A program made the translations under genes and the position numbers. The notes beneath the pieces were generated by a model that searched no databases, had not been told where the DNA came from, and worked only from the letters and a program-made list of their open reading frames with translations. A stretch of 64,000 nucleotides of DNA, taken from NCBI RefSeq assembly GCF_031457495.1, contig NZ_JAVDWM010000001.1, forward strand, positions 1,352,001 to 1,416,000, read 5' to 3'. Source of the stretch: Sphingopyxis sp. BE259. GTDB taxonomy: Bacteria; Pseudomonadota; Alphaproteobacteria; Sphingomonadales; Sphingomonadaceae. Below, in pieces: positions 371 through 20,305 of this stretch. Each line of letters begins with the position of its first letter. The first letter of the stretch is position 1.

Positions 371-3300
371 TCACTCCGCCGCCGGACAGGTGCCCGCCGG
401 ATCGCATTCGTCGAGCGTCGGCGTCCACAGATCGTCATTGCCCGCGCCGGTCACCGGATCGTCGAGCAACGGCTCGCCGCTCAGCGGATCGAGGTCGCGC
501 ATCGTGATCAGCGGCACCGGCAGGCTCTGGCCGCTGCCGTCATCCTCCTCGGCATCAGCCTCTTCCTCGATGACGTCCTGCACCGGGAAGCTGTTTTCGT
601 CGTCGATGAAGGCGCAGGCGCTGGCGCTGGCAATCAGGCAACCGTTGAAGGTCGAGCGCGGATCGAAGCTGCCCGCGGCGGGTGCGACGCCGCCGATGGT
701 CAGCAGCGGAATGGTGTCGAGCCCGGTCACCTGACCCGTCGGCCCCAATCGCACTCCGTTGACGACGATCCGCGACGCACCGCTGGTGACCACGTTGAGC
801 CCGCCCGCGCCAAAGGTCAGCCCGCGGCGGCTGGCAAAGTCGGTTCCGGCGCCACTGTTCTGGACATAAAAGCCGCCGACGACTTCGGCGCGGATACCGC
901 GTGCGAACAGAGCCCCTTCGTTGATCAGCACCCCGTCGTTCTGCGCCAGCCGCGTCTCGATCGCGTCGGTCGTCGTCGCCGCGCCGACATCGCCGATCGC
1001 GGCGGTCGTGGCGACGATGATGTCGTCGGATACCATGTTGAGCTGTCCGGCGGCGGCGGTGCCATTGACCAGCCGCACCGTGCCCTGGCCCAAAATGACC
1101 TCGAGCGCGTCGTCGGCGAACAGGTTGAGCGCGTTGGTATCGGACAGGCCGGTCAGCTCGACATTGCCGATCACCCGCATCTTGCCCGGAGTGCGGATGG
1201 TCAGCGCGCCATTGGCACCCAGATTCGACCCGGCCGCGCCGCCAGCAAGGGTGAAGCTGTCGACGATGATGTCGGGCGGCGAACTGCTGCCGACCGACGC
1301 GTCGTTGACCACTTCGACCTCGGGCGCAAAGATTTCGATGTCGGTGCCGAACAGCCGCGTCAATTCGCTGGCATCGAGGTGGAATCCGTTGCGCGTTCCG
1401 GTGCCGCCGACAAAGGTCTGGCTGAACACGTCGTTATTCTCGATCGACAGCGTTTCAGTGCTGCCCGCGGTGCCGACGCGGGCGCCGGTGGCGATGATGA
1501 TGTCGTTCGATTGCAACGCGATATTGCGAGCGGTCAGCACCCCGTTGATAACGATGTCGCCCTCCGAGGTGATGTCGGCGGCGTTCGCGGCCAATTGCGC
1601 GATGATGATGTCGTTGCCGTTTTCAGAGGTCAGCGTGGTGCGACCCGCGACGACGCTGGAGGTAATCGTCAGCGTCCCCGACCCGTTGGTCACCACCGCG
1701 TCGCCGACATCGGCGTCGAGCACGGCAAACACGATGTTGCCGCCGGTGCCCAGGTTAATACTGTCGCCGGTCACGGTGACCGGGCCGGTCGACAGCAGCC
1801 CGGCCGATGTTACCGCGCCGTTGCTGGCGGAGAGCAGCGTCGCGCCGCCCGCCTGAATATTGGTCGAATTGACGCCGTTGGTCCCGGTCAGGGTCAATTG
1901 CCCCGTGCCGGTGGTCTGGGCGCGGGTGATGTCGATGCGGTCGCCGGTCAGGGTCATGTCGCCCCCGGCGCGAACGCGCCCGCCGATGATGTTGCCGGTC
2001 GTGACGAGCGACAGGTTGCGCCCCGCTTCGAGGGTGCTGACGAACGCGCCGCCGGGGCTGGCCAGGGTTGTCAGATTCGCCGCCGCGGCGGTGATCGTGA
2101 CGTCGCGGCCCGCCGCCACGGTGCCGGTGGCGTCGAGCGTGCCAGTTGCCGTTACCAGAACGTCGGTGAAGGCGTTGAGGCCCGCCAATGCGGTGTCGCC
2201 GCCCTGGGTGCGAATGTCGCTGCTCCCCCCCGTGACGCCCTGACCCAGCGTCGTCGCGCCGTTGATCGCGATCGCGCCGGTCGTGGTGACCAGAATGTCG
2301 TCGGCGGCCGACAGGGTCGCGGCGGTGATCGCGCCGCCTGCGGTCAGGAAGACGTCGGCACCATTCGTGGCCGAGACACCTTCGCCCTGACTGATCGTGA
2401 AGCCGCTTCCCGCCAGATAGCCGAGGGTGGCACTGTCGGCGCCGGTGCCGGTCGCGCTGACGCTGTTGGCCGTAACATCGCCAGCCGCGCGCACCTCGAC
2501 ATCGTCGCCTGCCGTCACGCCGCTGAGCGCGGCATTGGTCCCGGCGATGACGAGCATGTCCTCGCCCGCGCTGGCGCCGGTCAGCGCCGCCGATCCGCCC
2601 GCGCTGACCCCGAACATCCGCGCCGCCGCGCTGTTGGTCAGCGCGGCATTGCCCGCGGCTTCGACATACACATTGCCCTGTGCGACGCCGCCATTGCCAT
2701 CGACATAGCCGCCGTTAGCGGTCGCCGACGCGGTGATATTGGCATCGGAATTCAACCGGACATCGCCGCCCGCAACAAAGGTGCCGATCAGGTCGCCCGC
2801 GGCAAAGATCGAGATCGTCCCGGCGACATCGGCGGCGTTCACCGCGACGGAGCCGCCCAGGCCAAAGGCGAAGAAGGACGCGTCGCCGGTGACTGCGCCG
2901 GTCAACGCAATGCTGTCTCCGACCGCATTAATGTCGCCGCCCGCCGCGATGTTGTTTCCCGTTATCGCGTTGATGGCGGACAGACTGACTGTGCTGCCTG
3001 CATCGATTGCAGCGAACGTGACGCTGTCGCCACTGATGCTGGTCGCCTGCCCCGATTGCAGGGTGCCGGTGGTTGTGACGGCGCCCGAAGCCGTCAGCGT
3101 CAGATTGTCAAACGCCGACATGCTCCCGCCGCCGATAGTACCCGCCGATGCGGTGAGGACGATGTTCGACAAATTGGGCGGCGTGGCGTTGATCTGGAAG
3201 CCGCTGGCGCCCGTGGGGCCGACCGGCAGATAGGTCAGCGTCGCGCTGTCGGGTCCGGCCCCGGTGGTCGTCAGGCCATTGGCGATGATCCCGCCCGCTG

Positions 3301-6300
3301 CGATCGCGCTCAGATCGTCGCCCGCGGTCAGGTTGGTCAGCGTCGCGGTGGTCCCCGCCAGCACCAATATATCTTCACCAGCCGCGATCCCGCTGAGCGC
3401 CGCCGATCCACCGGCGTTGACGCCGAACATGCCCGTCGCGCTGCTGTTGGCGAGGGTGACATTGCCGACCGCATCGGCAAACACGCTGGCCGCGATCGGC
3501 GGGCCGCTGCTCGAACTTTCAAAGCCGGTGGCGTTGGCCGACGCGTTGATGTTGGCGCCCGACCGCAGCCGCACATTGCCGACGGCATTATAGGTGCCGG
3601 TGATGTCGCCACGGGCCGAGATCGCGATATCGTCGGCGATGTTTGCCAAGTTTATCGCAATCGGTCCGGCGCTGCTCGCGGCAAACAGCGACGATGCGCC
3701 GGTGATCGTACCGGAGATGGCGATCCGCGTCGCGATCAGGTTGACGTTGCCGCCCGCGGCAATCGATCCGCCGCTGATCCCGTCGGCACCCGCGACATTG
3801 CCGCTTGCGGTCAGCGATACCGACGCCCCCGCGTCGATATTGTTGAAAATGATCGACTGGCCATTGACCTGAACGAAGCCGCCCGCGGTCGAATTGCCCA
3901 GATCGACCGCGCCGGGCGAGGTGACGATGATGTCGCCGCCGGTAATGATCGAATTGAGCCCGGTGCGGAAACTGGCGCCGCTCGCGGTGAAATCATTGGC
4001 GGCCTCGGCATGCTCGACCGACGCCGCGCCCACAGCGGTCATCACGATATTGCTGGCGTCGAGCCGGTCGACGGCAATGGCGCCCAGGGTGGAGGTGAGC
4101 GACAGCGTGCCGCCCGCGTCGAGCAAACTGCCCGAAGCACCGCTGATGCTGCCTGCGCTCGCGGTCAGATTGCCGACGGCCTGGAGTGTCGGCGCGGTGC
4201 CTTCGCGGGCATCGTGCCGGATGTCGATCTGGTCGCCGACATCGATGGTCAGGTTGCCGCCAGCACTGATTGTGCCATTCGACCGGGCATAGGCGCCGAA
4301 CGAGCTGTCGGTGCTCAGCACCATGTTGCCCGTCGTCGCGATCGTGCCGCCGTCGGCAGCGAAGAAAATGCCCGCGGGCGCTTCATCGGTGTCGTTGTTG
4401 GTCGGCGGTGCGTCGCCGAAGGCTTCGGCGGCCAAGCTGGTCATCCGAACCGCGCCGCCGCCCGACGTGCGGATTTCGATGCGCCCCGCGACATCGCCAG
4501 TGGCGGCGATCGTCGTCACCCCCAAGTTGACCAGCGCCGCCGTCTCTCCGCCTGCCGCTTCGATCAGCGCCCGGCCCGCGACCGATTGCTGAACCGCGCC
4601 AGCGGCGCCATTGCCGCTGGTCCCGGTGCCGCCCGCGCCGCCGGTGCCGGCCGTGCCGCCGACCGTGATGCTGACCGGGCTGCCGCTGGAGGTGATCGTG
4701 CCGCCATTGGCGAACACGCGTACCGTGCCGCCCGCGGCGCCGCCGCCGTTGCCGCCGTCGCCGCCGACAAATCCCGCACCAAAGCCGTTGAACGCGCCGT
4801 CGCCGCCGCTGCCGCCCGACCCTTCGCTGCGCAGCGAGACCAGCCCGCCAGCATCCGAATCGAGGAAGATGGTGGCGCCGCCGCTGGCGATCATTTCCAG
4901 GGTGCCGCCGCTGCCTGACCCGCCGCTACCGCCCACTGCACCGACGGTCTCGCCGCCGAAAAACGACGATCCGGCGCTGCCGCCATTGCCGCCGATGCCG
5001 TCGATCTGGAAATTGGCCTGGCTGAGCGTGGCGCGCCCGTCGCCGCCGGTTGCCTCGATCCGGCCCGTGCCGCCGGTGCCGTCACCGCCGTCGCCGCCCG
5101 CACCATTGTTGCCGAATATTCCGTCGCCGCCGCGCGCCGAGGCATCGACGCTCATCACCAACGGATTGGCGTCGAAATCGGTGACGATGATCTGTGCCAG
5201 GCCGCCGAGCGCGTCGCCGCCGCTGCCACCGAGCAGGCCGAAGCCGCCATTGCCGCCCAAAGCCGCAGCTGTGCTGATAACCGCGCCGGTCGCGTTCAGA
5301 GGCGCAGCGACGTCGATCGTTGCCGATCCGCCCCGACCGTTGCCGCCATTGCCGCCGATGCCGACGCCGGTAACCGATCCTGAACTGCTGGAGGCGAACA
5401 CATTGCCGCCGCTGCCGCCGAACCCGCCCGCTCCGGCGATCAAATCGCCGGTGTTGAGCGTTCCCGACACCATCGTGATCGCCGCCGTGCCGCCTTGACC
5501 GTTGCCGCCCAGCCCGCCGGCTTCGACAATGCCGCTGCCCGAGCTGAAATTGCCGCCAGCGCCGCCCAAACCCTCGGCAAAAGCGGTCGTGGTTCCGCTC
5601 ACGGTAACCGTGGCGCCATCGATCCGGATCGTCGCGCTGCCGCCAATGCCGTCGCCACCAGGGCCGCCGGGCGTAACGTTCGCGGCATTGTCGTCGCTAC
5701 CATCGGGACCGGTGCCGCCGGTGCCGCTCGCCGAAACGGTGACCGAGCCGCTGTTCAGCACGCCGCCAAGCAGGCTGACCGTCGCGGTGCCGCCGGTGCC
5801 GGTTCCGGCGGTGCCGTCGAACGCGGCACCCGCTTCGGCATTGGCGCCGACCAGCAGGTCGCCGAGCTGCGCCGTGCCGCCGGTCATCGTGAACGCCGCC
5901 GCCCCGCCGGTGCTGCCGCCCGTCGCCGAATCGATCAGGCCATCGGCAAGGATCGCCAGCATACCGCCGGTGAGCAACTGGCCGCCGCTGACATTGATCG
6001 CGGCGCTGCCGACCGCACCATTGGCGCCGCCCGACGCCAGCGTCAGCGCGCCGGTGGCGCCGATGACTCGTCCGGCGCCCAAGTTGAAGGTTGCGCTGGC
6101 GTCGCCGGTAAAGCTGCCGTTGCCTTGGACCAGAAGACGCCCCAGATGTGGGGGCGGGACAGAGGTGAACGGCCCGCCCGTTGGCACCTGCAGCAGCGGC
6201 TGGCCCAGCAGTGCGCCGCTGGCACGCGCCACGGTGTCGCTGCGGAACAGCGTGTCGTTGATCGTGATATTGGCGGCGGTCGCGTTCGCCGGAGCGCCGT

Positions 6301-7339
6301 CCAGTTCGCCGCCAAAAATGTTGTAACCCGCCGACAGGCGCACTGCGCCGTCGGGATCGGTCTGCGCCGATACCGCATCGTCATACCCGATCGAACCCGA
6401 AACGAGCATCGTGACCGCGTCGTTTTTGGGCATCGCGACCATATAGATGCGGCTCTGGTCGATGTCGCCTTGGGCGTGCGCCGGACCGGTCGTGCTGCCG
6501 GTGTGGGTGATGACGTTGCCACCCTCGGCGCCGACCAGCACGTTAATGTCGAACAGGCCGGTGTTGATACGGATGTCGGTCTGTTCGGCGGCGACATAGG
6601 CGGCCGACCCATCGACGCGGACGGCGCCCGCCTGGACGATCCGCGGCGCGACGACCGCGACATAGCTGCTGCCCGGATTGAAGGCATTGGCGGCATTGAT
6701 ATTGCCGTTGACGGCGACAGCCGCCGTGCTGCCCGACGCGCCGCGAAAGCGGATTTCCCCCGCTGGACCAAACAGGCCGTCGGTGGTGATCACGTCGTTG
6801 GTGGTCAGCACCAGGCTGCCGACATTGATCGCGGCGCCATTGCCGATCAGGATGCCGCCCGCGTTATAGAACCAGATATGCCCGTTTTGCAGGTTTGGCA
6901 GGCCCGAGATCGACACAACGCTGTTGACCGTCCCGTTGAGCGCAATCTGGTCCGCAATCGGGGTGCCCGACGCTGCGATAAAGCGGTTGAGGACGACATA
7001 ATCGACGGTATTGCCGACAAAGTTCAGCGTGTTTCCCGACGGCAGAAAATCGATGATGCCACCGACCGGCGCATTGGACGGGGTCCAGTCAATGATGCTT
7101 TGCGGGCCGTTCACGTTGACCGTCGACGGGTTTACCCCGGTGCCGGCGGTCGTGCCGCCGGGCAGCGTCGTGATCGTTCCCGACCCTGCGACCTGCGCCA
7201 GCGTTGGCCCGCCATAGGCCAGCGCCATCAGGCCCGCGCCGATCGCACAGCTGGTCAGCAGACGGCGCTTGCCGACGTTGCCGGGTGCGGGGGTGCCAGA
7301 TATTTGGGTGCCAGATACTTCGGTGACGGTGGCACGCAT
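371..7339 (-). CDS. Giant two-partner-secretion exoprotein (TpsA, filamentous haemagglutinin type)
   Basis: A secreted adhesin-like exoprotein of about 2,320 residues, exported by the adjacent TpsB. After a long N-terminal export signal (KRRLLTSCAIGAGLMALAYG, then LAQ) comes a haemagglutination-activity (TPS) domain with the hallmark NGHIWFYNAGGILIGNGAAI, which is the part recognised by TpsB. A PGRS-like stretch rich in GG, GN and GGxGG follows (about 4590-5930), then beta-helix repeats including two related modules of about 200 residues (about 3225-3830 and 2420-3000). The acidic C-terminus holds two close cysteine pairs (GCLIASASAC and ECDPAGTC). An in-frame ATG exists at 7366, 3 nt after the tpsB stop, but it has no ribosome-binding site. 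The ATG at 7339 has AAGGA 8 nt upstream and is preferred. The ligand is unknown. Confidence 0.9.
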   Translation of the reverse strand: MRATVTEVSGTQISGTPAPGNVGKRRLLTSCAIGAGLMALAYGGPTLAQVAGSGTITTLPGGTTAGTGVNPSTVNVNGPQSIIDWTPSNAPVGGIIDFLPSGNTLNFVGNTVDYVVLNRFIAASGTPIADQIALNGTVNSVVSISGLPNLQNGHIWFYNAGGILIGNGAAINVGSLVLTTNDVITTDGLFGPAGEIRFRGASGSTAAVAVNGNINAANAFNPGSSYVAVVAPRIVQAGAVRVDGSAAYVAAEQTDIRINTGLFDINVLVGAEGGNVITHTGSTTGPAHAQGDIDQSRIYMVAMPKNDAVTMLVSGSIGYDDAVSAQTDPDGAVRLSAGYNIFGGELDGAPANATAANITINDTLFRSDTVARASGALLGQPLLQVPTGGPFTSVPPPHLGRLLVQGNGSFTGDASATFNLGAGRVIGATGALTLASGGANGAVGSAAINVSGGQLLTGGMLAILADGLIDSATGGSTGGAAAFTMTGGTAQLGDLLVGANAEAGAAFDGTAGTGTGGTATVSLLGGVLNSGSVTVSASGTGGTGPDGSDDNAANVTPGGPGGDGIGGSATIRIDGATVTVSGTTTAFAEGLGGAGGNFSSGSGIVEAGGLGGNGQGGTAAITMVSGTLNTGDLIAGAGGFGGSGGNVFASSSSGSVTGVGIGGNGGNGRGGSATIDVAAPLNATGAVISTAAALGGNGGFGLLGGSGGDALGGLAQIIVTDFDANPLVMSVDASARGGDGIFGNNGAGGDGGDGTGGTGRIEATGGDGRATLSQANFQIDGIGGNGGSAGSSFFGGETVGAVGGSGGSGSGGTLEMIASGGATIFLDSDAGGLVSLRSEGSGGSGGDGAFNGFGAGFVGGDGGNGGGAAGGTVRVFANGGTITSSGSPVSITVGGTAGTGGAGGTGTSGNGAAGAVQQSVAGRALIEAAGGETAALVNLGVTTIAATGDVAGRIEIRTSGGGAVRMTSLAAEAFGDAPPTNNDTDEAPAGIFFAADGGTIATTGNMVLSTDSSFGAYARSNGTISAGGNLTIDVGDQIDIRHDAREGTAPTLQAVGNLTASAGSISGASGSLLDAGGTLSLTSTLGAIAVDRLDASNIVMTAVGAASVEHAEAANDFTASGASFRTGLNSIITGGDIIVTSPGAVDLGNSTAGGFVQVNGQSIIFNNIDAGASVSLTASGNVAGADGISGGSIAAGGNVNLIATRIAISGTITGASSLFAASSAGPIAINLANIADDIAISARGDITGTYNAVGNVRLRSGANINASANATGFESSSSGPPIAASVFADAVGNVTLANSSATGMFGVNAGGSAALSGIAAGEDILVLAGTTATLTNLTAGDDLSAIAAGGIIANGLTTTGAGPDSATLTYLPVGPTGASGFQINATPPNLSNIVLTASAGTIGGGSMSAFDNLTLTASGAVTTTGTLQSGQATSISGDSVTFAAIDAGSTVSLSAINAITGNNIAAGGDINAVGDSIALTGAVTGDASFFAFGLGGSVAVNAADVAGTISIFAAGDLIGTFVAGGDVRLNSDANITASATANGGYVDGNGGVAQGNVYVEAAGNAALTNSAAARMFGVSAGGSAALTGASAGEDMLVIAGTNAALSGVTAGDDVEVRAAGDVTANSVSATGTGADSATLGYLAGSGFTISQGEGVSATNGADVFLTAGGAITAATLSAADDILVTTTGAIAINGATTLGQGVTGGSSDIRTQGGDTALAGLNAFTDVLVTATGTLDATGTVAAGRDVTITAAAANLTTLASPGGAFVSTLEAGRNLSLVTTGNIIGGRVRAGGDMTLTGDRIDITRAQTTGTGQLTLTGTNGVNSTNIQAGGATLLSASNGAVTSAGLLSTGPVTVTGDSINLGTGGNIVFAVLDADVGDAVVTNGSGTLTITSSVVAGRTTLTSENGNDIIIAQLAANAADITSEGDIVINGVLTARNIALQSNDIIIATGARVGTAGSTETLSIENNDVFSQTFVGGTGTRNGFHLDASELTRLFGTDIEIFAPEVEVVNDASVGSSSPPDIIVDSFTLAGGAAGSNLGANGALTIRTPGKMRVIGNVELTGLSDTNALNLFADDALEVILGQGTVRLVNGTAAAGQLNMVSDDIIVATTAAIGDVGAATTTDAIETRLAQNDGVLINEGALFARGIRAEVVGGFYVQNSGAGTDFASRRGLTFGAGGLNVVTSGASRIVVNGVRLGPTGQVTGLDTIPLLTIGGVAPAAGSFDPRSTFNGCLIASASACAFIDDENSFPVQDVIEEEADAEEDDGSGQSLPVPLITMRDLDPLSGEPLLDDPVTGAGNDDLWTPTLDECDPAGTCPAAE

Positions 7340-7369
7340 GGCGATGGTCCTTGATGCAATGGTCATGGG

Positions 7370-9190
7370 TCAGCGCGCCTTCACGCCGAATTGGGTGGTC
7401 AGCGACACCAGCAATCTGGGATCGGGCTTTTGCGCCAGAAATCCGCCGTGGTTGAGCGGCACCGCCACCGTCACGTCGAGTCGCCCGACATCGCCATAAG
7501 CGACCCGCAACCCGCCACCGGCAGAATAGAGTTTTTGCGGATCAAGCCCGTCGAATGCGCTGTCCTTGTTCCATACCCATGCGGCGTCGAAAAAGGCGAA
7601 GGGCTGGATCGCGAATGCTTTGGTGTTGGCGGGGACGAACGAGCCGTAGCGCGCCTCGACCGCGACCCCGACGCCGCTGTCGCCGATGATCGTGCCAGGG
7701 TCGAAACCGCGCCCAATGGTGAAATTGCCGCCCGAAAACTCTTCATAAGCGAGCAGCGGATCGCTCGCCCATTGCGCGCGCGGCGCCGCCGACAGCGTGA
7801 ACAATTTGTGCGGGCGCCATTCGGCGAGCGCATTGGCGCGCAGCAGGAACGCGTCGGGCTTGCCCTCGACGCGGGTCAGCGGCACCGCGCCGGGCAGGAA
7901 ACAGGTTGCCCCGGCGGGGCCGCAATCGTCGCTGGCGCCTAAAAAGCTGGCGCCCTGCCGCGCTTCGAGCGAGGTGGACAGCGCCCAGCGCGGTTCGCTG
8001 GGGCTGAAACCGCCGCGCCCCGCGACCGATCCGGGATCGATCCAGCTGGCATCGGCGCGCAGGTTGAACACGCGCAGCCGGTCGCGGTTGATCGGCACCC
8101 CGCCAAGCCCGATGTCCTGATCGATCAGGTCGAGCCCGCCGCCGATGGTCAGGCGGCGCGCCTGGGTCAGCGTCAGCGGATAGGATGCGAACAGGCTGAC
8201 GATCTGGGTTTTCGACTTGATCGGGAAGGCCGCGATGTCGGGGCGCGTCCAGGCATAGGTATAACTGGCGCCGAAGCGTAGCCCTTCGCCGCCGACGCGG
8301 AACTCATGCGCCAGCTGCACGACCTGTTGCTCGTCGAAATCTGGGGTGGAGTAAAAGCTGGCGGTGGTCAGGTCGCCCATGCCGGTCAACCCGGCCAAGC
8401 GAACCCGCGCTACCCCGCCCCAGCGGCCGACGTCGCGCGACCCGAAATTCTGGGCGTTGAAGTCGAACAACACCGGCGTGCGCGCTACCAGCACTTCGCC
8501 GACAACCTCACCGGGCGTCGCACCCGGTCGCAGCGTCAACCGCGCATCCATGCCGGGAATGTCGCGCGCCAGCAACAGATAGCGTTCGGCATCGATGATG
8601 TTGAATACCGGCTGGTCGTCGAGCCGCGACAGATAGCGTTGCAGCAGCGGTTCGTTCGCGCCGGCATCGCCGCGCACCTCGATCCGCGCCATGCGCGCCG
8701 CCAATATGTCGAGCCGCACGACGCCGTCGTCGATCGTTTGCGGCGGCACGCGGACCGCCGCCAGATAGCCTTGCGAACGCAGCATCGTCGCGGCGCGATC
8801 GCGAATGTCGCAGACCACCGAAATCGGCAGATCCTGTCCGACCTTGTCCGACCAGCTGGACGCCAGCATCGCCGGGTCGATCCCCTCGACGCTGGAGAAT
8901 TCGACGCCGCGCAGCGTGATGCGGACGCTCGCAAACTCCGCGTTGGCGAGCGGACAAGGCGCGCGTTCGATCGCATCGTCGGCGGACACGACCTGCTCGC
9001 TGGGCGGGGTGACCGGCGCCAGCGTTGGTTGCTGAATTTCCTCGCGGGTCGGAATCTGCGGGGTCGCCTGGGCCAACGCCGCGACAGGCAAGGCGGCGGC
9101 GATCAGCGCCGCCGAACCGCACAGCTGTTTTTTGAGGGCGACCCGTTTTGGCCGAACCCCCGGATAAATCGCCTGAACCCCCGTGATCAT
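7370..9190 (-). CDS. TpsB-family outer-membrane transporter (ShlB/FhaC/HecB)
   Basis: The Omp85-superfamily pore partner of the TpsA exoprotein; it translocates TpsA across the outer membrane. The roughly 606-residue protein has a signal peptide (KKQLCGSAALIAAALPVAAL, then AQA), a proline-rich linker, POTRA-type domains over about residues 65-230 (ending near the VVGEVLV and TPVLFDFNAQNFGS segments), and a C-terminal 16-strand-type barrel with alternating aromatic strands (RFGASYTYAWTRPD, RWALSTSLEARQ, FAFFDAAWVWN). Start codons GTG GTG ATG are stacked at 9196-9188; the ATG at 9190 sits 5 nt after AAGGGG and is chosen. Its stop lies a few bases before the TpsA start, so the pair is one operon. 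Length and order match typical TpsB-TpsA loci. Confidence 0.93.
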   Translation of the reverse strand: MITGVQAIYPGVRPKRVALKKQLCGSAALIAAALPVAALAQATPQIPTREEIQQPTLAPVTPPSEQVVSADDAIERAPCPLANAEFASVRITLRGVEFSSVEGIDPAMLASSWSDKVGQDLPISVVCDIRDRAATMLRSQGYLAAVRVPPQTIDDGVVRLDILAARMARIEVRGDAGANEPLLQRYLSRLDDQPVFNIIDAERYLLLARDIPGMDARLTLRPGATPGEVVGEVLVARTPVLFDFNAQNFGSRDVGRWGGVARVRLAGLTGMGDLTTASFYSTPDFDEQQVVQLAHEFRVGGEGLRFGASYTYAWTRPDIAAFPIKSKTQIVSLFASYPLTLTQARRLTIGGGLDLIDQDIGLGGVPINRDRLRVFNLRADASWIDPGSVAGRGGFSPSEPRWALSTSLEARQGASFLGASDDCGPAGATCFLPGAVPLTRVEGKPDAFLLRANALAEWRPHKLFTLSAAPRAQWASDPLLAYEEFSGGNFTIGRGFDPGTIIGDSGVGVAVEARYGSFVPANTKAFAIQPFAFFDAAWVWNKDSAFDGLDPQKLYSAGGGLRVAYGDVGRLDVTVAVPLNHGGFLAQKPDPRLLVSLTTQFGVKAR

Positions 9191-9293
9191 CACCACCCCT
9201 TGTGCACGAACGCAGCCGCGAAATCGCGGTGCGGCAATTCATCTAGCTCTGCCAAACACCGGCAGCGCGAATTTTTCGACCCAAGGAAAGCTC

Positions 9294-9311
9294 CTGCCGA
9301 CGGATCGGCAG
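9294..9311. other. Hairpin in the leader before tpsB
   Basis: A perfect 7-bp stem (CTGCCGA / TCGGCAG) with a 4-nt loop lies between the FecR-like gene and tpsB. Read on the plus strand it is followed by a T-rich run (ATTTTCTTTTTATT), the layout of a terminator. No plus-strand gene ends here, however. On the minus strand, the direction of the cluster, it would sit in the tpsB leader about 100 nt upstream of the start. It could be a processing or attenuation element, or part of an untranslated leader; the function is inferred only. Confidence 0.4.
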
Positions 9312-9374
9312 ATTTTCTTTTTATTGTTATCAGATGGTAGCAAACGGTTCAATATTTCTGCGTTTCGGTTAACC

Positions 9375-10133
9375 TTATCCGGCCTCACCCTCCGCCATCG
9401 CATCGACCAGGCGATTGAGCTGCGGGGTGCAGCCCTTGGCCATCAGCATATCGACCGATCCGTCGATCGTATCGGGGGCATTTTCCAACGGCGTAAACCG
9501 CACCTTGACCGGCGCGGGCAGGCCGCCGCCCGACAGGCGGTAATCGACGCCATATTGGACCGGCAGGGTGTCGGTCGGCCATTTGCGGAAATTGGCACCG
9601 TCGACCAGCGCCACGGTGGCTTTCTTACCCGCACTTTCGATTTCCAGCGCGGTGTCGCCTTCCATGTTCGGGCGCCACAGCATCAACGTGGCCGGATCGG
9701 CGACGCAGAAGGTGCCGGTTTCGCGGTAATCGAGCAGCCACAGGTTCGGCGCGCGCGCATCGACCGGGGCTACATCACCCGGGCCGCGCGAAAATCCGCC
9801 GCGCGAGCGCATCGTCGGTCCTTTGGCGAGCATCCGGGTCACCGTGCCGCTCATCGACTGGCTCGCCTGGATCGTGCCGCTGGCGCCAAAGGTGCCAGGC
9901 CCGGACAGGGTGCGCGTCTTGCCCGCCTGCATCAGCACGACCTTGTCGCCCGCAACCAGGGTCAGCTTGTCGGCGGATTTCAGCTTGGCGCCGGTCGGAT
10001 ATTTGCCCGCCGACGGTCCGGTCGAGCGGACAACCATCGATTGGGCGGCGGCGGTGCCCGCCATCGCCACCGCCATCACGGCAGCGGCAGCGGTCAGGCT
10101 GACGCGGCGCAGGGTCAGATCAGGAAAGGACAT
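9375..10133 (-). CDS. Small exported FecR-like protein of the CHAT/CHASE2/TPS cluster
   Basis: A 252-residue exported protein of unknown function. It has a clear signal peptide (VSLTAAAAVMAVAMAGTAAA, cut before QSM). Next comes a short domain of FecR-like pattern, KYPTGAKLKSADKLTLVAGD followed by KVVLMQAGKTRTLSGPGTFG, a beta-rich motif also seen in envelope sensor proteins. An Arg/Gly-rich linker and a C-terminal part with two cysteines (TFCVAD and KGCTPQ) complete it; these could pair in the periplasm. Its start overlaps the end of the cyclase gene by 14 nt, so it is translationally linked to the cyclase. The context suggests a periplasmic partner or sensor for the CHASE2 cyclase or CHAT protein. 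The FecR relationship is a pattern judgement and not proven. Confidence 0.7.
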   Translation of the reverse strand: MSFPDLTLRRVSLTAAAAVMAVAMAGTAAAQSMVVRSTGPSAGKYPTGAKLKSADKLTLVAGDKVVLMQAGKTRTLSGPGTFGASGTIQASQSMSGTVTRMLAKGPTMRSRGGFSRGPGDVAPVDARAPNLWLLDYRETGTFCVADPATLMLWRPNMEGDTALEIESAGKKATVALVDGANFRKWPTDTLPVQYGVDYRLSGGGLPAPVKVRFTPLENAPDTIDGSVDMLMAKGCTPQLNRLVDAMAEGEAG

Positions 10134-12207
10134 AGCTTTCTCCTTTTTCGGTATCGTTCAGGCGTTCTATCAGGAACATGATGGCTGCATCCTGACTAAA
10201 TTCGTCCGCCAGCGCTGTGGCGCTGGTCACATAGGCTTTTTTGTCGCCCGCGGTGTGCGCCGCGACCATCGCGGCGATGCGGGCGCGCTGGTCGGGGGCG
10301 AGGTCGGGGCGCGGGGTCAGCACATCGACCGGCTGGGCGCGGCCGCGCAATGTCACCCGCCCCATCGGCATCAGGTCGTCGCGGTTCGATCGCGCTGCGG
10401 CCTCGGCCGAGATCAGGACGCCGGTTTTCAGGCTCTTGTTCGCCGCTTCCAGGCGCGAGGCGGTGTTCATGCTGTCGCCGAGCGCGGTATATTGGATGCG
10501 CCCCTCGCCGCCGAAATTGCCGACGATCGCGTCGCCAACATGCAGGCCGACGCGCGTCATGCCCAGCGGCGGCACACCTTCGGCCAGGTCGACGCGGAAC
10601 TTCTCACCCGCCTCATACATCGCCAGCGCCGCGGCGGCGGCTTGTGGCCCGTCGTCGGGGCGGCTGAGCGGGGCGCCCCAAAAGGCGACGATGGCATCGC
10701 CGACGAACTTGTCGATCGTCCCGCCATGGTCGAGCACGATGTCGGACAGGCGGTCGAGATAGGCATTGAGCAGCCGCGCCACGGTTTCCGGGGTCACCGC
10801 GTGGCTGAGCTTGGTGAAGCCTTCCAGATCGGTGAACACGCAAAAGATATTGCGGCGTTCGCCGTGCAGCGACAACTGGTCGGGGTCGCGCATGATCTGC
10901 GCCGCGACGTCGGCGGGCAGATATTTGCCCAGCGCCGACTGGGCAAAGGCGCGCTGGCGCGACCCGATCGTGCGTGCCGCGGTGCCGACCGCGGCGTATC
11001 CGAACAGCCAGCCGATCGCCCAGCCAAAGGTCGGCAGGGTGGTGGTGTCGACCCCGCGGCCCTGCAACCAAAAGGGAAAGGCGATGAAAAAGGCCATCTG
11101 TCCCAGAAACGCCAGCGCGACCCAGCGGGCGCGAAGATCGATCAGGCTGGTCAGCCCACCCGCCAGCACGATCAGGACGGCGAGGATCCACAGCACCGGT
11201 GCGGCGAGCGGCCGCGACCACGCGTTGTCGAGCTGTTGCGCCAGCATATGCGCGTGAACTTCCAACCCGATCATCGTTTCATGCTGGCCGGTGATCGGAT
11301 CGGTGAAGCGGCTGAGCGGCGTGTTGAACTGGTCATTATCGATGATGTCGCCGCCGATCAGCACATAGCGATCCTTGATCAGCTCGGCAAAACCCGCGCG
11401 CATGTCAGCGTCCATCGGCATGGCAAAGGTGTCGATCGGGATATTGGCAAAGACGGGTTCTTCCTGTCCCGCGGCGGCGCGCGCCGGGACCAGGAAGCGG
11501 ATATTGCCCTGAAAGCTCGCGTGCGCGGGATCGACCGGCGCCATGGCGTTCGACATCAGCGGCGGCAGGTTTTTGGGCCGGTCGGGCCAGTTGCGGATCA
11601 CGCTGTCGTCATCCGTGCGGAACAGTACGCTGGTCGGCTTCGTCTTGTCGGTCGCGACCGCCGCGATGAAGGCTTCGAGAAACTTCTGCTGTTCGTAAAA
11701 GATGGTGTTCGGATTGCTCGCCTGTTCGGCATAGGCGAGCCAGGTCGGCGTCGTCATCGCGCGCAGCTGCGTTTTCAGCACCTCATCGTCGGGGCGCGGC
11801 GAATCGAACGCAATATCGATACCGATCGCCTTGGCGCCCATCTGGTCGATATTGCCGAGCGCATTGGCGAGCAGGGTGCGGTCGAGCGGCGACCGGATAC
11901 CGGTGTTGAACAGCGTCTCGTCGTTATAGGTGATCAGGACGATGCGTTTATCCTGTTCGACATGCGGCGCCATCAGCGTGGCGCGGGCATCGTACAGCGC
12001 GCGCTCGGCGGCATCGATCAGCGGCATCTGCCAGCTGAAACGCGCGATCAGAATGGCGACGATCAGAAATACGATCGTCGCCGCCATCCGCGACGGGCCA
12101 AGCTGCATGACCAGTCGGCGCACTTGCTTGCGCAGCGGCACAGCGGGCCGCTGCCCGTCCTGCGCGACCGGATCGGCCGTGGGAATGCTGGTGTCAGGCG
12201 CGGTCAT
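10120..12207 (-). CDS. CHASE2-domain class III adenylate/guanylate cyclase
   Basis: A membrane-bound signalling enzyme of 695 residues, predicted to make cAMP in response to a periplasmic cue. The layout is one N-terminal membrane helix (about residues 41-60), a large extracytoplasmic CHASE2 sensor (about 60-330), a block of three membrane helices (about 332-420), then a class III cyclase domain (about 450-640). The metal-binding aspartates sit in FTDLEGFT and KFVGDAIVAFWG, and the transition-state Asn/Arg in GDSMNTASRLE. The Lys before FVGD and the Thr in QYTALGD fit class IIIb adenylate cyclases better than guanylate cyclases. The ATG at 12207 lies 4 nt after the stop of the CHAT gene; a longer frame upstream would overlap that gene and is rejected. 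The 3' end overlaps the FecR-like gene. Confidence 0.92.
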   Translation of the reverse strand: MTAPDTSIPTADPVAQDGQRPAVPLRKQVRRLVMQLGPSRMAATIVFLIVAILIARFSWQMPLIDAAERALYDARATLMAPHVEQDKRIVLITYNDETLFNTGIRSPLDRTLLANALGNIDQMGAKAIGIDIAFDSPRPDDEVLKTQLRAMTTPTWLAYAEQASNPNTIFYEQQKFLEAFIAAVATDKTKPTSVLFRTDDDSVIRNWPDRPKNLPPLMSNAMAPVDPAHASFQGNIRFLVPARAAAGQEEPVFANIPIDTFAMPMDADMRAGFAELIKDRYVLIGGDIIDNDQFNTPLSRFTDPITGQHETMIGLEVHAHMLAQQLDNAWSRPLAAPVLWILAVLIVLAGGLTSLIDLRARWVALAFLGQMAFFIAFPFWLQGRGVDTTTLPTFGWAIGWLFGYAAVGTAARTIGSRQRAFAQSALGKYLPADVAAQIMRDPDQLSLHGERRNIFCVFTDLEGFTKLSHAVTPETVARLLNAYLDRLSDIVLDHGGTIDKFVGDAIVAFWGAPLSRPDDGPQAAAAALAMYEAGEKFRVDLAEGVPPLGMTRVGLHVGDAIVGNFGGEGRIQYTALGDSMNTASRLEAANKSLKTGVLISAEAAARSNRDDLMPMGRVTLRGRAQPVDVLTPRPDLAPDQRARIAAMVAAHTAGDKKAYVTSATALADEFSQDAAIMFLIERLNDTEKGESYVLS

Positions 12208-12211
12208 CGGA

Positions 12212-15200
12212 TCAGCGGGCAGCGCGGCCGACACCTTCCTGTGCGGATGCTGCTTCGGCGGTCGCCGCGCCGCCGTGCAGCAGCGCTTGGCCGCCGTCGC
12301 CAATGATCGCAAACCCCGCCCAATAATAGGGATGCGACGTCTGCTTGTCGTCCATCAGCCGCATCTGCGTCCCCCACATCGCATCGGCGACGCTGGTGCC
12401 CTGATCCACAGCGAACAGCCCGCCGATCAATCGCTTGGTCGCGTCGAAATCGTCGGGCGCCGGCCAGTGGCTGGCGATCACCGAACGGCCGCCGGCGCCG
12501 ATGAAGCTGCGGACCAGCCCGTCGAGGGCGTTGCCGCCGCCCGAAAGGCCCGCCTCGCGCGTTGCGGCCACCGACGCCGCGCCAGCCGTGTCGCACGCCG
12601 ACAGGATCACCAGATCGGCATTGATCTTGAGGTCGAAGATTTCCTGAAAGGTGAGCAGCCCATCCGAATCGCCGTCGCCGAATGAGGTGACCAGCGCCGG
12701 GCGCGCCGGGCAGGCGGGCCGTGGTGCGGTGACCAGGCCGTGGGTCGCAAAATGAATGATGCGATAGTCATTGAGGTCGCTGCGGGTCTTGACCGCGCTG
12801 TCGGTAAAGGCGCCGCCGGTCAGCAGCGTCCCGGCGTCGCCGCCCATCGCATTGCGGGCGGTGACCAGTTCGTCGGCGGATATCGGCCGCGCCCATTGCG
12901 ACACGTCCCACTGGCAGTCGCCGTCGATGGTGCTGGCTGCGGCGCCGCGCGTGCCGAGCGAGGGCAGGGTCGTGCCATTGATCGGCAGATTCTGCCCGAG
13001 CCCGAAATATTGGTGTGCCGCTTTCGACGGCGCCGCCTGCCGCGCGTTACGGAAGGCGAGGGTGGAGACTGCGGTGCTCGGCCGCGTCGTGCGCCCCAGC
13101 CAGGCAACCTGGCGCATGTCGAACGGGTCGGCATCGGGATCGAGCAACCGCTGTTCATAGGCGGCGAGGCCGGTGTCGGCGGTGACCAGCAGGTTGATCG
13201 GCAGCCGCAGCATCGCGCCGTCAGGTTCGAAAATCAGATGCGCGACCGTCGGCAGCTTGGCCGCCACCGGGCCGAACAGCTGGCCATAAAGTTTATAGGC
13301 GGTCGCGGCGTCAAAGGGATAAGTGACGCGGCGCCCATTTTCGACGATCGAGATCGTCGAGCGCAGCGTGTCGACCGCTGTGTCGAGCGCGCCGGCGCCG
13401 ATGTCCGATTTCCACAGCTGGGCGCTGCCCGGCTCGATCAGCATCGCATAGACCGCATCGCCGACGACGAGCATCTTGAGATAGGCTTCGTCGGCGCGCA
13501 GCACCTGTTGCAGTTCGCCAAGGTCGAGCTTACCCGGCGCGACCACTCGATATTGCGGAAAGGCCGAAAGCGCGACGATCGATTCGGCCTGCTGGAACGA
13601 CAGATTGTCGATCTGGGTCTTCAAATCGGCCCGCAATGCGTTGATTTCGGGCGATACTGGCAACTGGGCCAGTCGGGCGTCCTCGATCCGCGCCCGTTCG
13701 ATGTCGCGGTTCAGCGTCGTCGCCTGCCGGAACAGCCGCGCGCCGTCGTCGCTGCCGCTCGACAATTCGCGCGCCAGCACCGCCTGCGTGTCGGCGACGC
13801 CAGGCCGGACCTGCAACTGGCTGGCGACGAAGAAATCGCCGACCGCCGCCGGATCACTCGCCGCCCGGCTGGCAAGCAGCCGGTAATAGGGCGCCATCAT
13901 GTTCGCCATGCCGGTCGTCGAGCGTTGCGAATTGGCCAGCGCAGTCACGACGTCGCGATAGATGGTCAGCGCCTTGTCGTCCTGACCGTGCCGGGTCAGA
14001 AAGGCGGCGTAGCGCGCCCGCGCCGAGGCGAGCGCGTTGGTTTCGGGATATTCGATCGCCAGCGCGTTCACTGATTCCAGAAAGCGCGCGTCAGCGGCGG
14101 CGGTGTCGCCCAGCGCTTCCTCGGCGAGCGCGAGCTCGCCCAGCATCTGCGAACGCAACCGCACGATCGAAGTGACCCGGCCTTCGCGCACCGCGACCGC
14201 ATCGGACAGGCCTTTGAGCTGCGCCGCCTTGGCCGCTGCGCCATTGCCGCGCAGCCGCTCGACGGTGCCGAGCAAGTGGACCGCTTGGGCATCGATGATC
14301 TGCGCGCGTTCGACCGGGGTCAGCCGCTCGCGGTCCGACCCTTGCTGGACGGCGCGGGCGTTGCTGCCGCTGTTCACCCCGGCGACGATCGTCGGGGTCA
14401 ATGTCACGCTGGCGCCCTCGACCGTGACCGCGCTGGTCAGCGGCGGGATCGGCCGTTGCAGCAACTCCGCAGCGCCGTCGTAATCGCGCTGGTTCAGCGC
14501 ATGGATCGCGCGGAAATTGCGGCGCAGGCGCAGCTGGACGGGGTCGCTCGTCGGCACCGCCTCGGCCTCGGCGAACAGTCGTTCGGCCTCGCCGAACTCG
14601 CCAAGGTTCGATCGTTGCAGCGCGCGGTTCAGGGTGAATTCGGTCGGATCGATGTCCGCCGCCGCCTGATCGCCCTCGGTGCGGCGCGACAGGGTTTCGA
14701 AAAATTCGGCCGCTTCGGCATAATCGCCGCTGTGGTTGCGGCGGTATCCTTCGGCCAGCGCCTTGTCGACGTCAATCGCCCCGGCCAGCGTCCGGGCGAA
14801 CCCGTCGTTGCCGCCGACCGACGTCGTCGCGACCTTGATCACGCCGGGGACGACCCGACGCTGCCGAACTGAATCGAGCGCGAGGTTGAGCGCATCGCCA
14901 TAGGCCGCGAAACCTTCGACTGTATAAGCGGTATCGCCGTCACTCTCGATCCGCGTCTGCCAGACGACGCTGCTGTCCTTGATCGTGCAAGTCCCGTCGG
15001 CGGTGCAGGTGACGGTTCCGGCGCGGCCGCGTTCGATCCGGGCCTTCGCGGCGTCGGGGTCGGCGCGGAGCATGCGAACATAGCCGACCGGCTGGCTGGT
15101 GTCGCGGCACAGAATGACCCACGCGCGGTCGAACATGCCGTCGATGACAGCGTCGCGCACCGTCGCCTGCACCGCACACAGCGAGCCGCCCTGGTCGCCG

Positions 15201-15313
15201 ATCGAAAAACTGTCGCGCAAAGTGGGATCGGTGCCCTGCGCCTGCGCGGCTCCCGGCGCCGCAAGCGCGAGCGCCGCCAGAATCGGCAGGCAAAACGGAC
15301 GTCGAACGGTCAT
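12212..15313 (-). CDS. Exported TPR-CHAT domain protein (caspase-like fold)
   Basis: A 1,033-residue protein with a signal peptide (MTVRRPFCLPILAALALAAP, cut near AQAQ), so it is expected in the periplasm or beyond. The N-terminal region has paired cysteines (LCAV, ILCRD, TVTCTADGTCTI). A long alpha-helical middle (about 170-560) with TPR-like repeats follows (GDYAEAAEFFETL, GEFGEAERLFAEA, RDYDGAAELL). The C-terminal CHAT domain carries the expected catalytic dyad: His in RIIHFATHG (about residue 854) and Cys in VILSACDTAG (about 904). CHAT proteins are separase/caspase-like peptidases, usually activated by their TPR partner region. The ATG at 15313 is preceded by GGGGG; an upstream ATG at 15400 would add a non-signal extension. 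First gene of the five-gene cluster. Confidence 0.9.
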   Translation of the reverse strand: MTVRRPFCLPILAALALAAPGAAQAQGTDPTLRDSFSIGDQGGSLCAVQATVRDAVIDGMFDRAWVILCRDTSQPVGYVRMLRADPDAAKARIERGRAGTVTCTADGTCTIKDSSVVWQTRIESDGDTAYTVEGFAAYGDALNLALDSVRQRRVVPGVIKVATTSVGGNDGFARTLAGAIDVDKALAEGYRRNHSGDYAEAAEFFETLSRRTEGDQAAADIDPTEFTLNRALQRSNLGEFGEAERLFAEAEAVPTSDPVQLRLRRNFRAIHALNQRDYDGAAELLQRPIPPLTSAVTVEGASVTLTPTIVAGVNSGSNARAVQQGSDRERLTPVERAQIIDAQAVHLLGTVERLRGNGAAAKAAQLKGLSDAVAVREGRVTSIVRLRSQMLGELALAEEALGDTAAADARFLESVNALAIEYPETNALASARARYAAFLTRHGQDDKALTIYRDVVTALANSQRSTTGMANMMAPYYRLLASRAASDPAAVGDFFVASQLQVRPGVADTQAVLARELSSGSDDGARLFRQATTLNRDIERARIEDARLAQLPVSPEINALRADLKTQIDNLSFQQAESIVALSAFPQYRVVAPGKLDLGELQQVLRADEAYLKMLVVGDAVYAMLIEPGSAQLWKSDIGAGALDTAVDTLRSTISIVENGRRVTYPFDAATAYKLYGQLFGPVAAKLPTVAHLIFEPDGAMLRLPINLLVTADTGLAAYEQRLLDPDADPFDMRQVAWLGRTTRPSTAVSTLAFRNARQAAPSKAAHQYFGLGQNLPINGTTLPSLGTRGAAASTIDGDCQWDVSQWARPISADELVTARNAMGGDAGTLLTGGAFTDSAVKTRSDLNDYRIIHFATHGLVTAPRPACPARPALVTSFGDGDSDGLLTFQEIFDLKINADLVILSACDTAGAASVAATREAGLSGGGNALDGLVRSFIGAGGRSVIASHWPAPDDFDATKRLIGGLFAVDQGTSVADAMWGTQMRLMDDKQTSHPYYWAGFAIIGDGGQALLHGGAATAEAASAQEGVGRAAR

Positions 15314-15523
15314 CACCAATCCCCCAAACACAAGCCCAGAGGCGCCGTGCCGACGATATTCCGGCAAGGCGCAGTCTTCTATTGCTGCGGTACGACCCAT
15401 TCCCTGACCCGGACCCTAACCCCTTCGCCGGAAAAAGGGAAGTGATCAGCGGCACAGGCGGCTTGCACCCGTGGGACACGCAACCTATCTGCAAAGTGAC
15501 AGGTTCAAACCCATGAGGACGAT

Positions 15524-17123: not shown

Positions 17124-17492
17124 ATGGCAGAAAGAGCAAGCGAGTCGGAGATGCAGGTGCTGTCGGCCCTATGGGACGATGCCCCGCAGACCGCGGCCGA
17201 CCTGACCACCCGAATCGGCAAGGCGAACGGCTGGACGCAGGCGACAGTCAAGACCCTGCTCGCGCGGCTGGTCCAGAAAGGCGCGGTGACCGCCGAAGCC
17301 GATGGGCGTCGCTACCTCTACAGCCCCGCGATCGAGCGCGCCGACGCCGTTGGCGAGGAATCGCAGCGGTTTGTCGATCGCCTTTTCGGCGGCCGTGTCA
17401 GCCCGCTGATCGCGCACCTCGCCGATCGCGAGGCGCTGTCGGACACCGATATCGCCGAAATCGAGGCTTTGCTGCGGAGGCTCAAATCATGA
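17124..17492 (+). CDS. BlaI/MecI/CopY family transcriptional repressor
   Basis: A 122-residue winged-helix repressor. The SESEMQVLSALWDDAPQTAA opening and the recognition helix region GWTQATVKTLLARLVQKGAV are typical of BlaI/MecI, followed by the wing GRRYLYSP and a dimerising C-terminal helix bundle. Such repressors bind palindromes containing TACAnnTGTA and are inactivated when the partner BlaR1-type membrane protease signals. The ATG at 17124 has GGGAGGGG upstream (17111-17118); an in-frame ATG at 17058 would run through the operator and is rejected. Its stop overlaps the start of the M56 protease gene (ATGA). It probably represses its own operon; whether beta-lactams are the inducer is not shown by the sequence. 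Confidence 0.92.
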   Translation: MAERASESEMQVLSALWDDAPQTAADLTTRIGKANGWTQATVKTLLARLVQKGAVTAEADGRRYLYSPAIERADAVGEESQRFVDRLFGGRVSPLIAHLADREALSDTDIAEIEALLRRLKS

Positions 17493-19153: not shown

Positions 19154-19224
19154 ACAACACGAAGCCCGAACAGCGTCGGCGCCAGCCTTTGCTCCCCGGT
19201 GGGGCTGGCGGCAGGGGCGGGAAA

Positions 19225-19250
19225 GGGAGCGGGCAACCGCTCCCTTTTTC
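19225..19250 (+). terminator. Rho-independent terminator after the M56 protease gene
   Basis: An 8-bp perfect stem (GGGAGCGG / CCGCTCCC) with a stable GCAA tetraloop is followed by TTTTT, 72 nt after the stop codon. It ends the blaI/blaR1-like operon. Confidence 0.88.
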
Positions 19251-19387
19251 GTGCGGGTGGGCGCGGATACTGCCGATCGTCCCCGGCACGGGGAGGGGGA
19301 GGATCGCTTAGGCACGCAACCGGCCATTATCTGAAATGAACGCCGCCGCCCCTTTCGCTCCGCCCCCCGCAATGCCACATAAGGCCC

Positions 19388-20305
19388 ATGAGCGAAGACA
19401 AGCCCTGGCCCGACAGCATCCGCGCCGGCGATTGCGAGCAGCATGAACTGCTCGTTCGCCGCGTGCTGGCGCCCAACCCGTCGCCCTACACCTTCACCGG
19501 CACCCAGACCTGGCTTGTCGGCGCGGGCAGCGATGTTGCGGTGATCGATCCGGGGCCGACCGGCAGCGGCATGAGTATCGGCGACCCCGCCGACATCAAC
19601 GGCGCGGGGCATGTTGACGCGATCCTGCGCGCCGTCGGCGGCCAGCGCGTCGCTGCGATACTGTGCACTCACACCCACCGCGATCACAGCCCCGCCGCGG
19701 CGCCGCTGAAGGCGGCGACCGGGGCGCCGATCATCGGCTGCGCGCCGCTCGCGCTGCGCGACGACGGCCCGCGCGCCGATTCGGCGTTCGATCCCGATTA
19801 TGCGCCCGACCGCGTGCTGACAGATGGTGAGCGAATAACGGGCGACGGGTGGACGCTGGAGGCGGTCGCGACCCCAGGACATACGTCGAACCATCTGTGT
19901 TTTGGTCTGCTCGAAAGTGGCGCGCTGTTCACCGGCGATCACGTCATGGCGTGGTCGACCAGCGTCGTCAGCCCGCCCGACGGCGACATGGCTGCTTATA
20001 TGGCCAGCCTGTCGAAGCTCTATGAGCGCGACGATCGCGTCTATTATCCGGCACATGGCCCGGCGGTGACCAAGCCGCGCCAGCTCGTCCGCGGTATGCT
20101 GGGCCACCGCAAACAGCGCGAGCGACAGATTTTGCGCGAGCTGGAAAAGGGAACCCGGGTCATCCCCGCGATGGTCGCGCATATGTACAAGGGGCTAGAC
20201 CCGCGGCTGACCGGCGCCGCCGGACGCTCGGTGCTCGCGCATCTGTTCGACCTGCGGGCGCGCGGGGTGGTGCGCGAACGCGATGACGAATGGGAATTGG
20301 CCTGA
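19388..20305 (+). CDS. MBL-fold metallo-hydrolase (LACTB2-like)
   Basis: A 305-residue cytoplasmic metallo-beta-lactamase-fold hydrolase. The metal-binding motif is HTHRDHSPAA, with further ligands in TPGHTSNH and TGDHVMAW. A C-terminal winged-helix-like segment (VIPAMVAHMYKGLDPRLTGA followed by SVLAHLFDL) matches the LACTB2 group, several members of which act as RNA endonucleases. Others in the broader family are thioesterases or glyoxalase-like, so the substrate here is not settled. It starts with ATG after an AAGG ribosome-binding site and is followed 1 nt later by an exported protein of unknown function, forming a small operon with the DUF4230 gene. Confidence 0.88.
   Translation: MSEDKPWPDSIRAGDCEQHELLVRRVLAPNPSPYTFTGTQTWLVGAGSDVAVIDPGPTGSGMSIGDPADINGAGHVDAILRAVGGQRVAAILCTHTHRDHSPAAAPLKAATGAPIIGCAPLALRDDGPRADSAFDPDYAPDRVLTDGERITGDGWTLEAVATPGHTSNHLCFGLLESGALFTGDHVMAWSTSVVSPPDGDMAAYMASLSKLYERDDRVYYPAHGPAVTKPRQLVRGMLGHRKQRERQILRELEKGTRVIPAMVAHMYKGLDPRLTGAAGRSVLAHLFDLRARGVVRERDDEWELA

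Follow-up and report, generated by a model that had tools for sequence, protein, structure and literature searches.

A CHAT protease family member linked to a C-terminally tagged two-partner secretion exoprotein and an optional CHASE2 cyclase pair in Sphingopyxis and its relatives

This report concerns a five-gene cluster in a 64,000-nucleotide (nt) stretch of Sphingopyxis sp. BE259 (contig NZ_JAVDWM010000001.1, positions 1,352,001 to 1,416,000), which is called the window here and comes from a genome of a single 3.67-Mb contig. The cluster encodes an exported TPR-CHAT protein of the caspase fold (P0001), a membrane CHASE2 cyclase (P0002), a small exported protein (P0003), and the TpsB transporter (P0004) and TpsA exoprotein (P0005) of a two-partner secretion (TPS) system. 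In the genomes searched, a short C-terminal tag is restricted to TpsA proteins encoded near CHAT genes. The cluster itself is best read as two joined modules, a CHAT-TpsB-TpsA core and a sensor formed by the cyclase and the small protein. The reading we favor, at a probability of about one half, is that the CHAT protein is an exported protease that acts on the tagged, surface-tethered TpsA and that the cyclase pair is an optional sensor setting the level of cyclic AMP (cAMP).

Linkage of CHAT with two-partner secretion genes

Searching with P0001 yielded 58 loci, in which gene presence was judged by tblastn. All five genes are present together in 53 of these, and the five incomplete loci (L031, L034, L036, L051 and L059) each lie at a contig end. 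With all five genes in 53 loci and the other five cut, the set is beyond chance; the 58 loci are not independent, since they are mostly Sphingopyxis. Five-gene loci are found as well in Sphingomonas, in Parasphingopyxis, and in Porphyrobacter (L058), where TpsB-TpsA stand ahead of CHAT. Twelve Sphingobium plasmid records carry a CHAT relative covering 92% of the query. In the one Sphingobium megaplasmid examined, the five genes follow the order of the window and a Crp/Fnr gene lies directly upstream; two of the five carry no annotation beyond hypothetical and were assigned by profile. The original prediction, made from the letters of the window, had looked for the cluster to recur in several genera, and it does.

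The tie within the cluster is strongest for the core. The 147 Sphingomonadales genomes searched contain 71 CHAT matches (45 genomes), 77 ShlB matches (54 genomes) and 99 CHASE2 matches (48 genomes). An ShlB/TpsB match lies within 20 kilobases (kb) of 29 of the 71 CHAT matches, in 26 genomes of 13 genera and always on the same strand, compared to about 1.1 expected by random placement. For CHASE2, 11 CHAT matches have a neighbor within 20 kb, never on the opposite strand, against 1.7 expected; each of these 11 has ShlB as well. The other 18 of the 29 CHAT-TpsB pairs have no CHASE2 within 20 kb; therefore, CHAT cannot in general need an adjoining cyclase or act on the small protein. This means that two parts of the original prediction, an obligate five-gene system and a general action of CHAT on the small protein, are not borne out as stated, and that the proposed tie between CHAT and the TPS exoprotein stands, through this linkage and through the tag described below.

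The three core genes stay together across several gene orders, namely CHAT-CHASE2-small-TpsB-TpsA, CHAT-small-CHASE2-TpsB, CHAT-TpsB-TpsA, TpsB-TpsA-CHAT, and TpsB-TpsA-CHAT-CHASE2-small. The sensor genes come and go as a pair. In the 26 stretches of the order sample (L069-L094), the small protein is found in 8/8 with a cyclase and in 0/18 without one, two of the latter (L081 and L082) matching no profile used. In genome G012, the CHAT-TpsB locus lacks the pair, which is found elsewhere in that genome.

Among the loci compared, the TpsB-TpsA-CHAT set of Sphingomonas parapaucimobilis (L068) is followed, after a few genes, by type VI secretion genes.

A C-terminal tag that follows CHAT

Complete TpsA proteins linked to CHAT have tails that diverge widely, save for a short motif that begins 18-40 residues from the end and has the core (D/E)PV(T/A/S)(G/S)xG(N/D)xxL. 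The first regular expression written for this tag matched P0005, L104 and 19 of the 20 complete, profile-recognized TpsA proteins in CHAT loci; allowing one more letter brought this to all 20, and no internal match occurred in 50,921 residues. Counted over 30 CHAT-linked stretches, 21 match and one (L084) carries the one-letter variant, while L077, L078 and L080 are cut before the C-terminus and L065 and L069 have no recognized TpsA frame. The controls were 29 stretches with TpsB and without CHAT, three places being included twice (L095/L143, L098/L148 and L101/L158). None of their frames of at least 700 amino acids (aa) has the tag, including 13 taken as complete TpsA, which were picked by position and length with L146 (cut) and L156 excluded.

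A 32-column profile of the tag, run against six frames of the 147 genomes, gave 25 matches below 1e-5 in 24 genomes, of which 19 had been used to build the profile and six had not (G035, G097, one in G127, G134, G012 and G121). All 25 lie 2-20 kb from a CHAT match on the same contig, in frames of at least 1907 aa, and a genome having the core set usually has one tagged protein. Five weaker matches (5.7e-4 to 0.04) resemble noise. Seen from the gene pairs, a tag match is found at 24 of the 29 CHAT-ShlB pairs.

The C-terminal part of these proteins usually also holds paired cysteines. In P0005, these are Cys2243/2251 and Cys2321/2327, the sole other cysteine being Cys40 in the signal region. Of the 20 complete CHAT-linked TpsA proteins, 17 have a pair 70-125 residues before the end and one has its pair 236 residues before it; further pairs occur deep inside nine of the 20.

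The five proteins of the window

The cluster had been claimed as five genes on one strand, and it is real: all five frames lie on the minus strand at the coordinates claimed (Table 1), with start codons checked. Alternative starts are available for two of them, since the longest possible frame begins at 15400 for P0001 and at a TTG at 12312 for P0002. The spacing is operon-like, with 4 nt between CHAT and the cyclase, a 14-nt overlap of the cyclase and small-protein genes, 184 nt before tpsB and 3 nt between tpsB and tpsA. The 184-nt gap could possibly hold a second promoter.

Table 1. Features of the cluster, in positions of the window
Feature	Positions	Strand	Basis
P0001, exported TPR-CHAT protein, caspase-fold peptidase family, conserved His/Cys	12212..15313	-	Pfam PF12770, alignment
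P0002, membrane CHASE2-class III nucleotidyl cyclase	10120..12207	-	Pfam; nearest solved sequences adenylate cyclases
P0003, small exported two-domain protein, MtxA-like layout	9375..10133	-	21-sequence alignment, structure model
P0004, TpsB outer-membrane transporter, POTRA_2 + ShlB	7370..9190	-	Pfam
P0005, TpsA exoprotein of 2331 aa with a TPS domain, Gly-rich repeats and paired C-terminal cysteines	371..7366	-	Model, translation
TpsA C-terminal tag core codons, DDPVTGAGN (P0005 residues 2302-2310), then DDLW	437..463	-	
184-nt gap, small-protein gene to tpsB	9191..9374	-	Parts conserved, 17 aligned Sphingopyxis sequences
CRP-like palindrome TGTGCCGCTGATCACT, 2/10 mismatches, upstream of CHAT	15441..15456	-	15 aligned Sphingopyxis sequences

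P0001, whose closest matches are Sphingopyxis records with up to 94% protein identity, scores 157.5 bits against the CHAT family (curated cut-off 24) and has one TPR_7 match under its cut-off. Its signal peptide was read by eye; here and elsewhere, signal peptides and lipoboxes were judged in this way. As had been claimed, the catalytic residues are there, and they prove to be conserved: among 46 aligned frames of at least 850 aa, the His is kept in 46/46 and the Cys in 45/45 with a residue at that position. P0001 can thus be assigned to the CHAT family by sequence, with predicted peptidase activity; it has no PDB sequence match at E<=0.01. LapG, the protease of a comparable TPS system, is not caspase-like. 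A LapG-type identity was considered for P0001 and rejected, since Pfam at E<=0.1 returned only CHAT and the sub-threshold TPR. A second CHAT protein in the genome of stretch L061 (11330-14926) has many TPR_12/TPR_10 repeats.

P0002 combines CHASE2 (92.9 bits) and Guanylate_cyc (61.1 bits), both above cut-off, in one protein, and its closest sequences of solved structure are adenylate cyclases. Most cyclase motif residues are each kept in 54 or 55 of 55 frames, one frame deviating at several, so that the domains and residues named in the original prediction are confirmed. By homology, P0002 should make cAMP.

P0004 matches ShlB (51.5 bits), Omp85 (33.6) and POTRA_2 (27.4), all above cut-off. 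P0005 has no Pfam match whatever; a structure model of residues 53-427 matches solved TPS secretion domains. The POTRA/barrel and the TPS domain assigned earlier to these two proteins are thus recovered, the latter from the model, and P0005 with its N-terminal TPS domain and P0004 can be assigned to two-partner (type Vb) secretion.

The cyclase and its small partner

P0003 had been called FecR-like. At E<=0.1, Pfam returns no match of it to FecR (PF04773), nor anything above cut-off, and the label is dropped here; neither P0003 nor P0005 has an NCBIfam match. The structure model of P0003 (predicted local distance difference test 78) has a beta N-domain, a poorly predicted linker and an Ig/FN3-like C-domain with helices. 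In 21 sequences, Gly113 and Arg116 of the linker and Cys143 and Cys235 of the C-domain are invariant.

The layout of the model resembles that of MtxA from magnetotactic bacteria. The MtxA gene is followed by a CHASE2 adenylate cyclase gene, trypsin cuts MtxA between its N- and C-domains, and deletion of mtxA gave no phenotype under standard conditions (PMC4439547). The likeness to P0003 would lie in the signal peptide, the beta-rich N-region, a protease-sensitive stretch, the Ig-like and helical C-domain, and the cyclase gene next to it (PMC4439547). MtxA differs in its larger helical part and has no sequence match to P0003, and the fold match is modest and tied with unrelated chains.

As for the MtxA gene, a CHASE2 cyclase gene accompanies the P0003 gene in the window and in many other genomes. 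A profile of P0003 gave 31 matches in 27 of 240 alphaproteobacterial genomes. The 30 loci besides the window were taken, and two weak ones (L137, 27 bits, and L138, 20 bits) were dropped. A CHASE2 cyclase is in the same stretch at 21 of the 28 that remain; four of the other seven stretches are under 12 kb. A caspase-fold protein is found in the stretch at 14 of the 21 loci with a cyclase. Nine of these have CHAT (L110-L112, L116, L126, L128-L130 and L133) and five have C14 (L113, L115, L119, L122 and L123), with L133 having both by a C14 profile built from the same five proteins counted; Pfam named all five. The profile search found such a protein at none of the seven loci without a cyclase. 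A signal peptide or lipobox can be discerned by eye on 10 of 12 of these proteases, the signal being merely possible in L113 and doubtful in L115. Among the 14 loci, a TpsB profile match is found only in L112 and a TPS-domain frame in L110. The cyclase and its small partner thus recur in the company of proteases of the caspase fold, whether or not TPS genes are there. A metacaspase-CHASE2 fusion has been published, with its protease part predicted to be cytoplasmic.

Several other neighborhoods touch on these families. In two loci (L119:4852-6951 and L122:5389-7290), a single frame next to the cyclase/small-protein pair combines a C14 caspase domain with an FGE-sulfatase domain. An Azospirillum plasmid (L139) has a relative of the CHASE2-type cyclase with DUF4384 and OmpA-family neighbors, a gene annotated as Crp/Fnr lying about 4 kb off, and on a Methylocystis plasmid (L140:4168-9704) a long FecR-domain protein lies directly ahead of a P0002-related cyclase. 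A Pseudosulfitobacter plasmid (L066) clusters genes for a patatin-like phospholipase, a caspase family protein, a serine protease and CHAT. Twelve CHASE2 genes without CHAT are divergent to an ShlB/TpsB gene 3-4 kb off (L095-L103); the sole one of these scanned (L098) encodes CHASE2-EAL. For the neighbor of about 500 residues in these CHAT-free loci, Pfam gives FecR in L096 and nothing in L098.

Possible control by cAMP

If cAMP is made, a Crp-family regulator could read it. The CRP-like palindrome upstream of CHAT is shared by the 15 Sphingopyxis sequences aligned. Elsewhere in the window (24296-24311), a perfect CRP-type palindrome, TGTGACGATCGTCACA, lies in a stretch without frames of at least 200 aa.

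In Sinorhizobium meliloti, a receptor cascade is built from CHASE2 cyclases and Clr, a regulator of the Crp type, and its targets include a FecR-domain protein and a periplasmic protein (PMC5498481, PMC13001267). This lends support to a cAMP output in the present cluster; it lends none to a sensing role of the small partner. The points of likeness are CyaD1 and Clr, a CHASE2 adenylate cyclase with a Crp-family regulator nearby, and SMc02177/SMc02178, a FecR-domain protein with a neighboring locus number and a periplasmic protein (PMC5498481); an outer-membrane barrel, NsrA, that takes part in sensing a protein (PMC13001267); and the Sphingobium locus, where Crp/Fnr, CHASE2 cyclase and small protein stand together. 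The systems differ in that no CHAT or TPS partner is described in the available parts of these papers (PMC5498481, PMC13001267) and P0003 is not FecR by Pfam.

Comparison with known systems

CdrA of Pseudomonas aeruginosa is a TPS adhesin that is released by the periplasmic protease LapG, and a C-terminal cysteine hook has been proposed as its anchor (PMC4694147, PMC11898600). The likeness to the present core would lie in a surface-held TPS exoprotein, in C-terminal cysteines thought to anchor it, in a periplasmic cut near the C-terminus, and in second-messenger control (PMC4694147, PMC11898600). The differences are that the putative protease here is a CHAT protein, that its gene stands beside tpsBA, that the exoprotein has a conserved C-terminal tag, and that the cyclase should by homology make cAMP, not cyclic di-GMP. 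Other comparisons are offered by the Craspase TPR-CHAT protein (Csx29) and by HetF, which likewise join TPR with caspase-like CHAT. They have CRISPR or divisome partners, whereas the proteins here have TPS partners and appear exported. A literature search, with subscription papers mostly outside it, found no paper joining the CHAT domain with CHASE2, two-partner secretion or Sphingopyxis, and none pairing any two of CHAT domain, CHASE2 and filamentous hemagglutinin.

Proposed mechanism and its alternatives

TPS proteins as a rule leave the cell N-terminus first, and TPR domains can bind C-terminal peptides. In the mechanism we propose, TpsB would export the giant TpsA filament, and the tagged, usually Cys-paired C-terminus would leave last and stay at the periplasmic face. 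The TPR-CHAT protein, in the same compartment, would recognize the tag, probably through its TPR part, and cut TpsA there or nearby, which would mature or release it much as LapG does CdrA. The small partner and the CHASE2 domain would read the periplasmic state, perhaps that of secretion or cleavage, and the cyclase would set cAMP, acting through a Crp-family regulator. With a signal peptide and conserved catalytic residues on the CHAT protein and a TpsA tag that tracks CHAT, the simplest reading is an exported protease with its substrate. We infer the cleavage of TpsA, its site, the recognition of the tag by the TPR part, the sensor cue and the cAMP output.

Several results weigh against this proposal. 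Complete CHAT-linked TpsA proteins without the tag occur in L068, L070 and L093, and five of the 29 CHAT-TpsB pairs (G133, G059, G025 and two in G065) have no tag match. A looser core, chosen after the tails had been viewed, was sought in the last 45 residues: four of the seven divergent CHAT-linked tails have it, as do 18 of the 20 main tails and none of the 13 controls, and inside the proteins it turns up about 0.05 times per 45 residues. The tag may partly mark descent, since the tagged TpsA proteins are interrelated and the TpsA profile matches no more than 4 of the 13 controls. Two tagged TpsA proteins (L058 and L083) are without a Cys pair, and 3 of the 13 controls have one at most 17 residues from the end, so a C-terminal Cys pair is not special to CHAT. 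On the side of cAMP, the CRP-like site is statistically marginal (window p 0.064), the Sphingobium Crp had no second tblastn match at 1e-8 in the loci compared, and the two S. meliloti targets are dispensable or weakly important for perception (PMC5498481, PMC13001267). CHAT could also be a non-proteolytic binder. Lastly, TpsB may read the tag, because TpsB is present wherever the tag is.

This last point leads to a somewhat unlikely alternative, in which TpsB reads the tag as a signal for retention or for completed export, and CHAT serves the secretion path as a quality-control protease instead of processing TpsA. The C-terminal Cys pairs would fit it, sitting where CdrB is thought to hold CdrA. 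However, all 29 control stretches, with CHAT-free TpsB genes of up to 380 bits by TpsB profile, have untagged frames, which means that the tag follows CHAT and not TpsB as such.

Distinctly less likely is that CHAT is a signaling protease, which damage to TpsA or secretion stress would activate to cut the Arg-containing linker of the small partner and switch the cyclase, so that cAMP would report the state of the exoprotein. It draws on the CHAT or C14 proteins found with 14 of the 21 cyclase/small-protein pairs, mostly without TpsB, on the invariant linker residues, and on the trypsin cut of MtxA (PMC4439547), if the stretch cut there may be equated with the P0003 linker. Against this, most CHAT-TpsB pairs have no CHASE2 nearby, and the Gly-x-x-Arg may be conserved for other reasons. 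Plain co-regulation, as a biofilm or adhesion island expressed together with no physical or enzymatic interplay, would account for the operon-like spacing and is improbable, since co-expression alone hardly explains the tag on TpsA, the swap of CHAT for C14 next to the cyclase pair, or the way cyclase and small protein go together.

Bacterial CHAT and C14 proteases are mostly discussed as cytoplasmic parts of cell-death or CRISPR systems. Many of those described here look exported and tied to a receptor cyclase, and one CHAT set comes with a candidate substrate bearing a recognizable terminal tag, which makes the job of a caspase-like protease testable. If the protease-substrate reading is true, a second protease, unrelated to LapG, would serve the LapG-type logic of tethered exoproteins, and the MtxA-like partners of CHASE2 cyclases would gain a role. 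A wider scheme is tentative: exported caspase-fold proteases (CHAT or C14) of Alphaproteobacteria might be wired to a CHASE2 cyclase receptor through a dedicated periplasmic partner, and in Sphingomonadales this protease might act as a tag-reading maturase of a giant TPS exoprotein, with processing coupled to cAMP.

Upstream of the cluster, the plus strand of the window (17171-20305) encodes an M56/BlaR1-type peptidase and a protein of the metallo-beta-lactamase fold.

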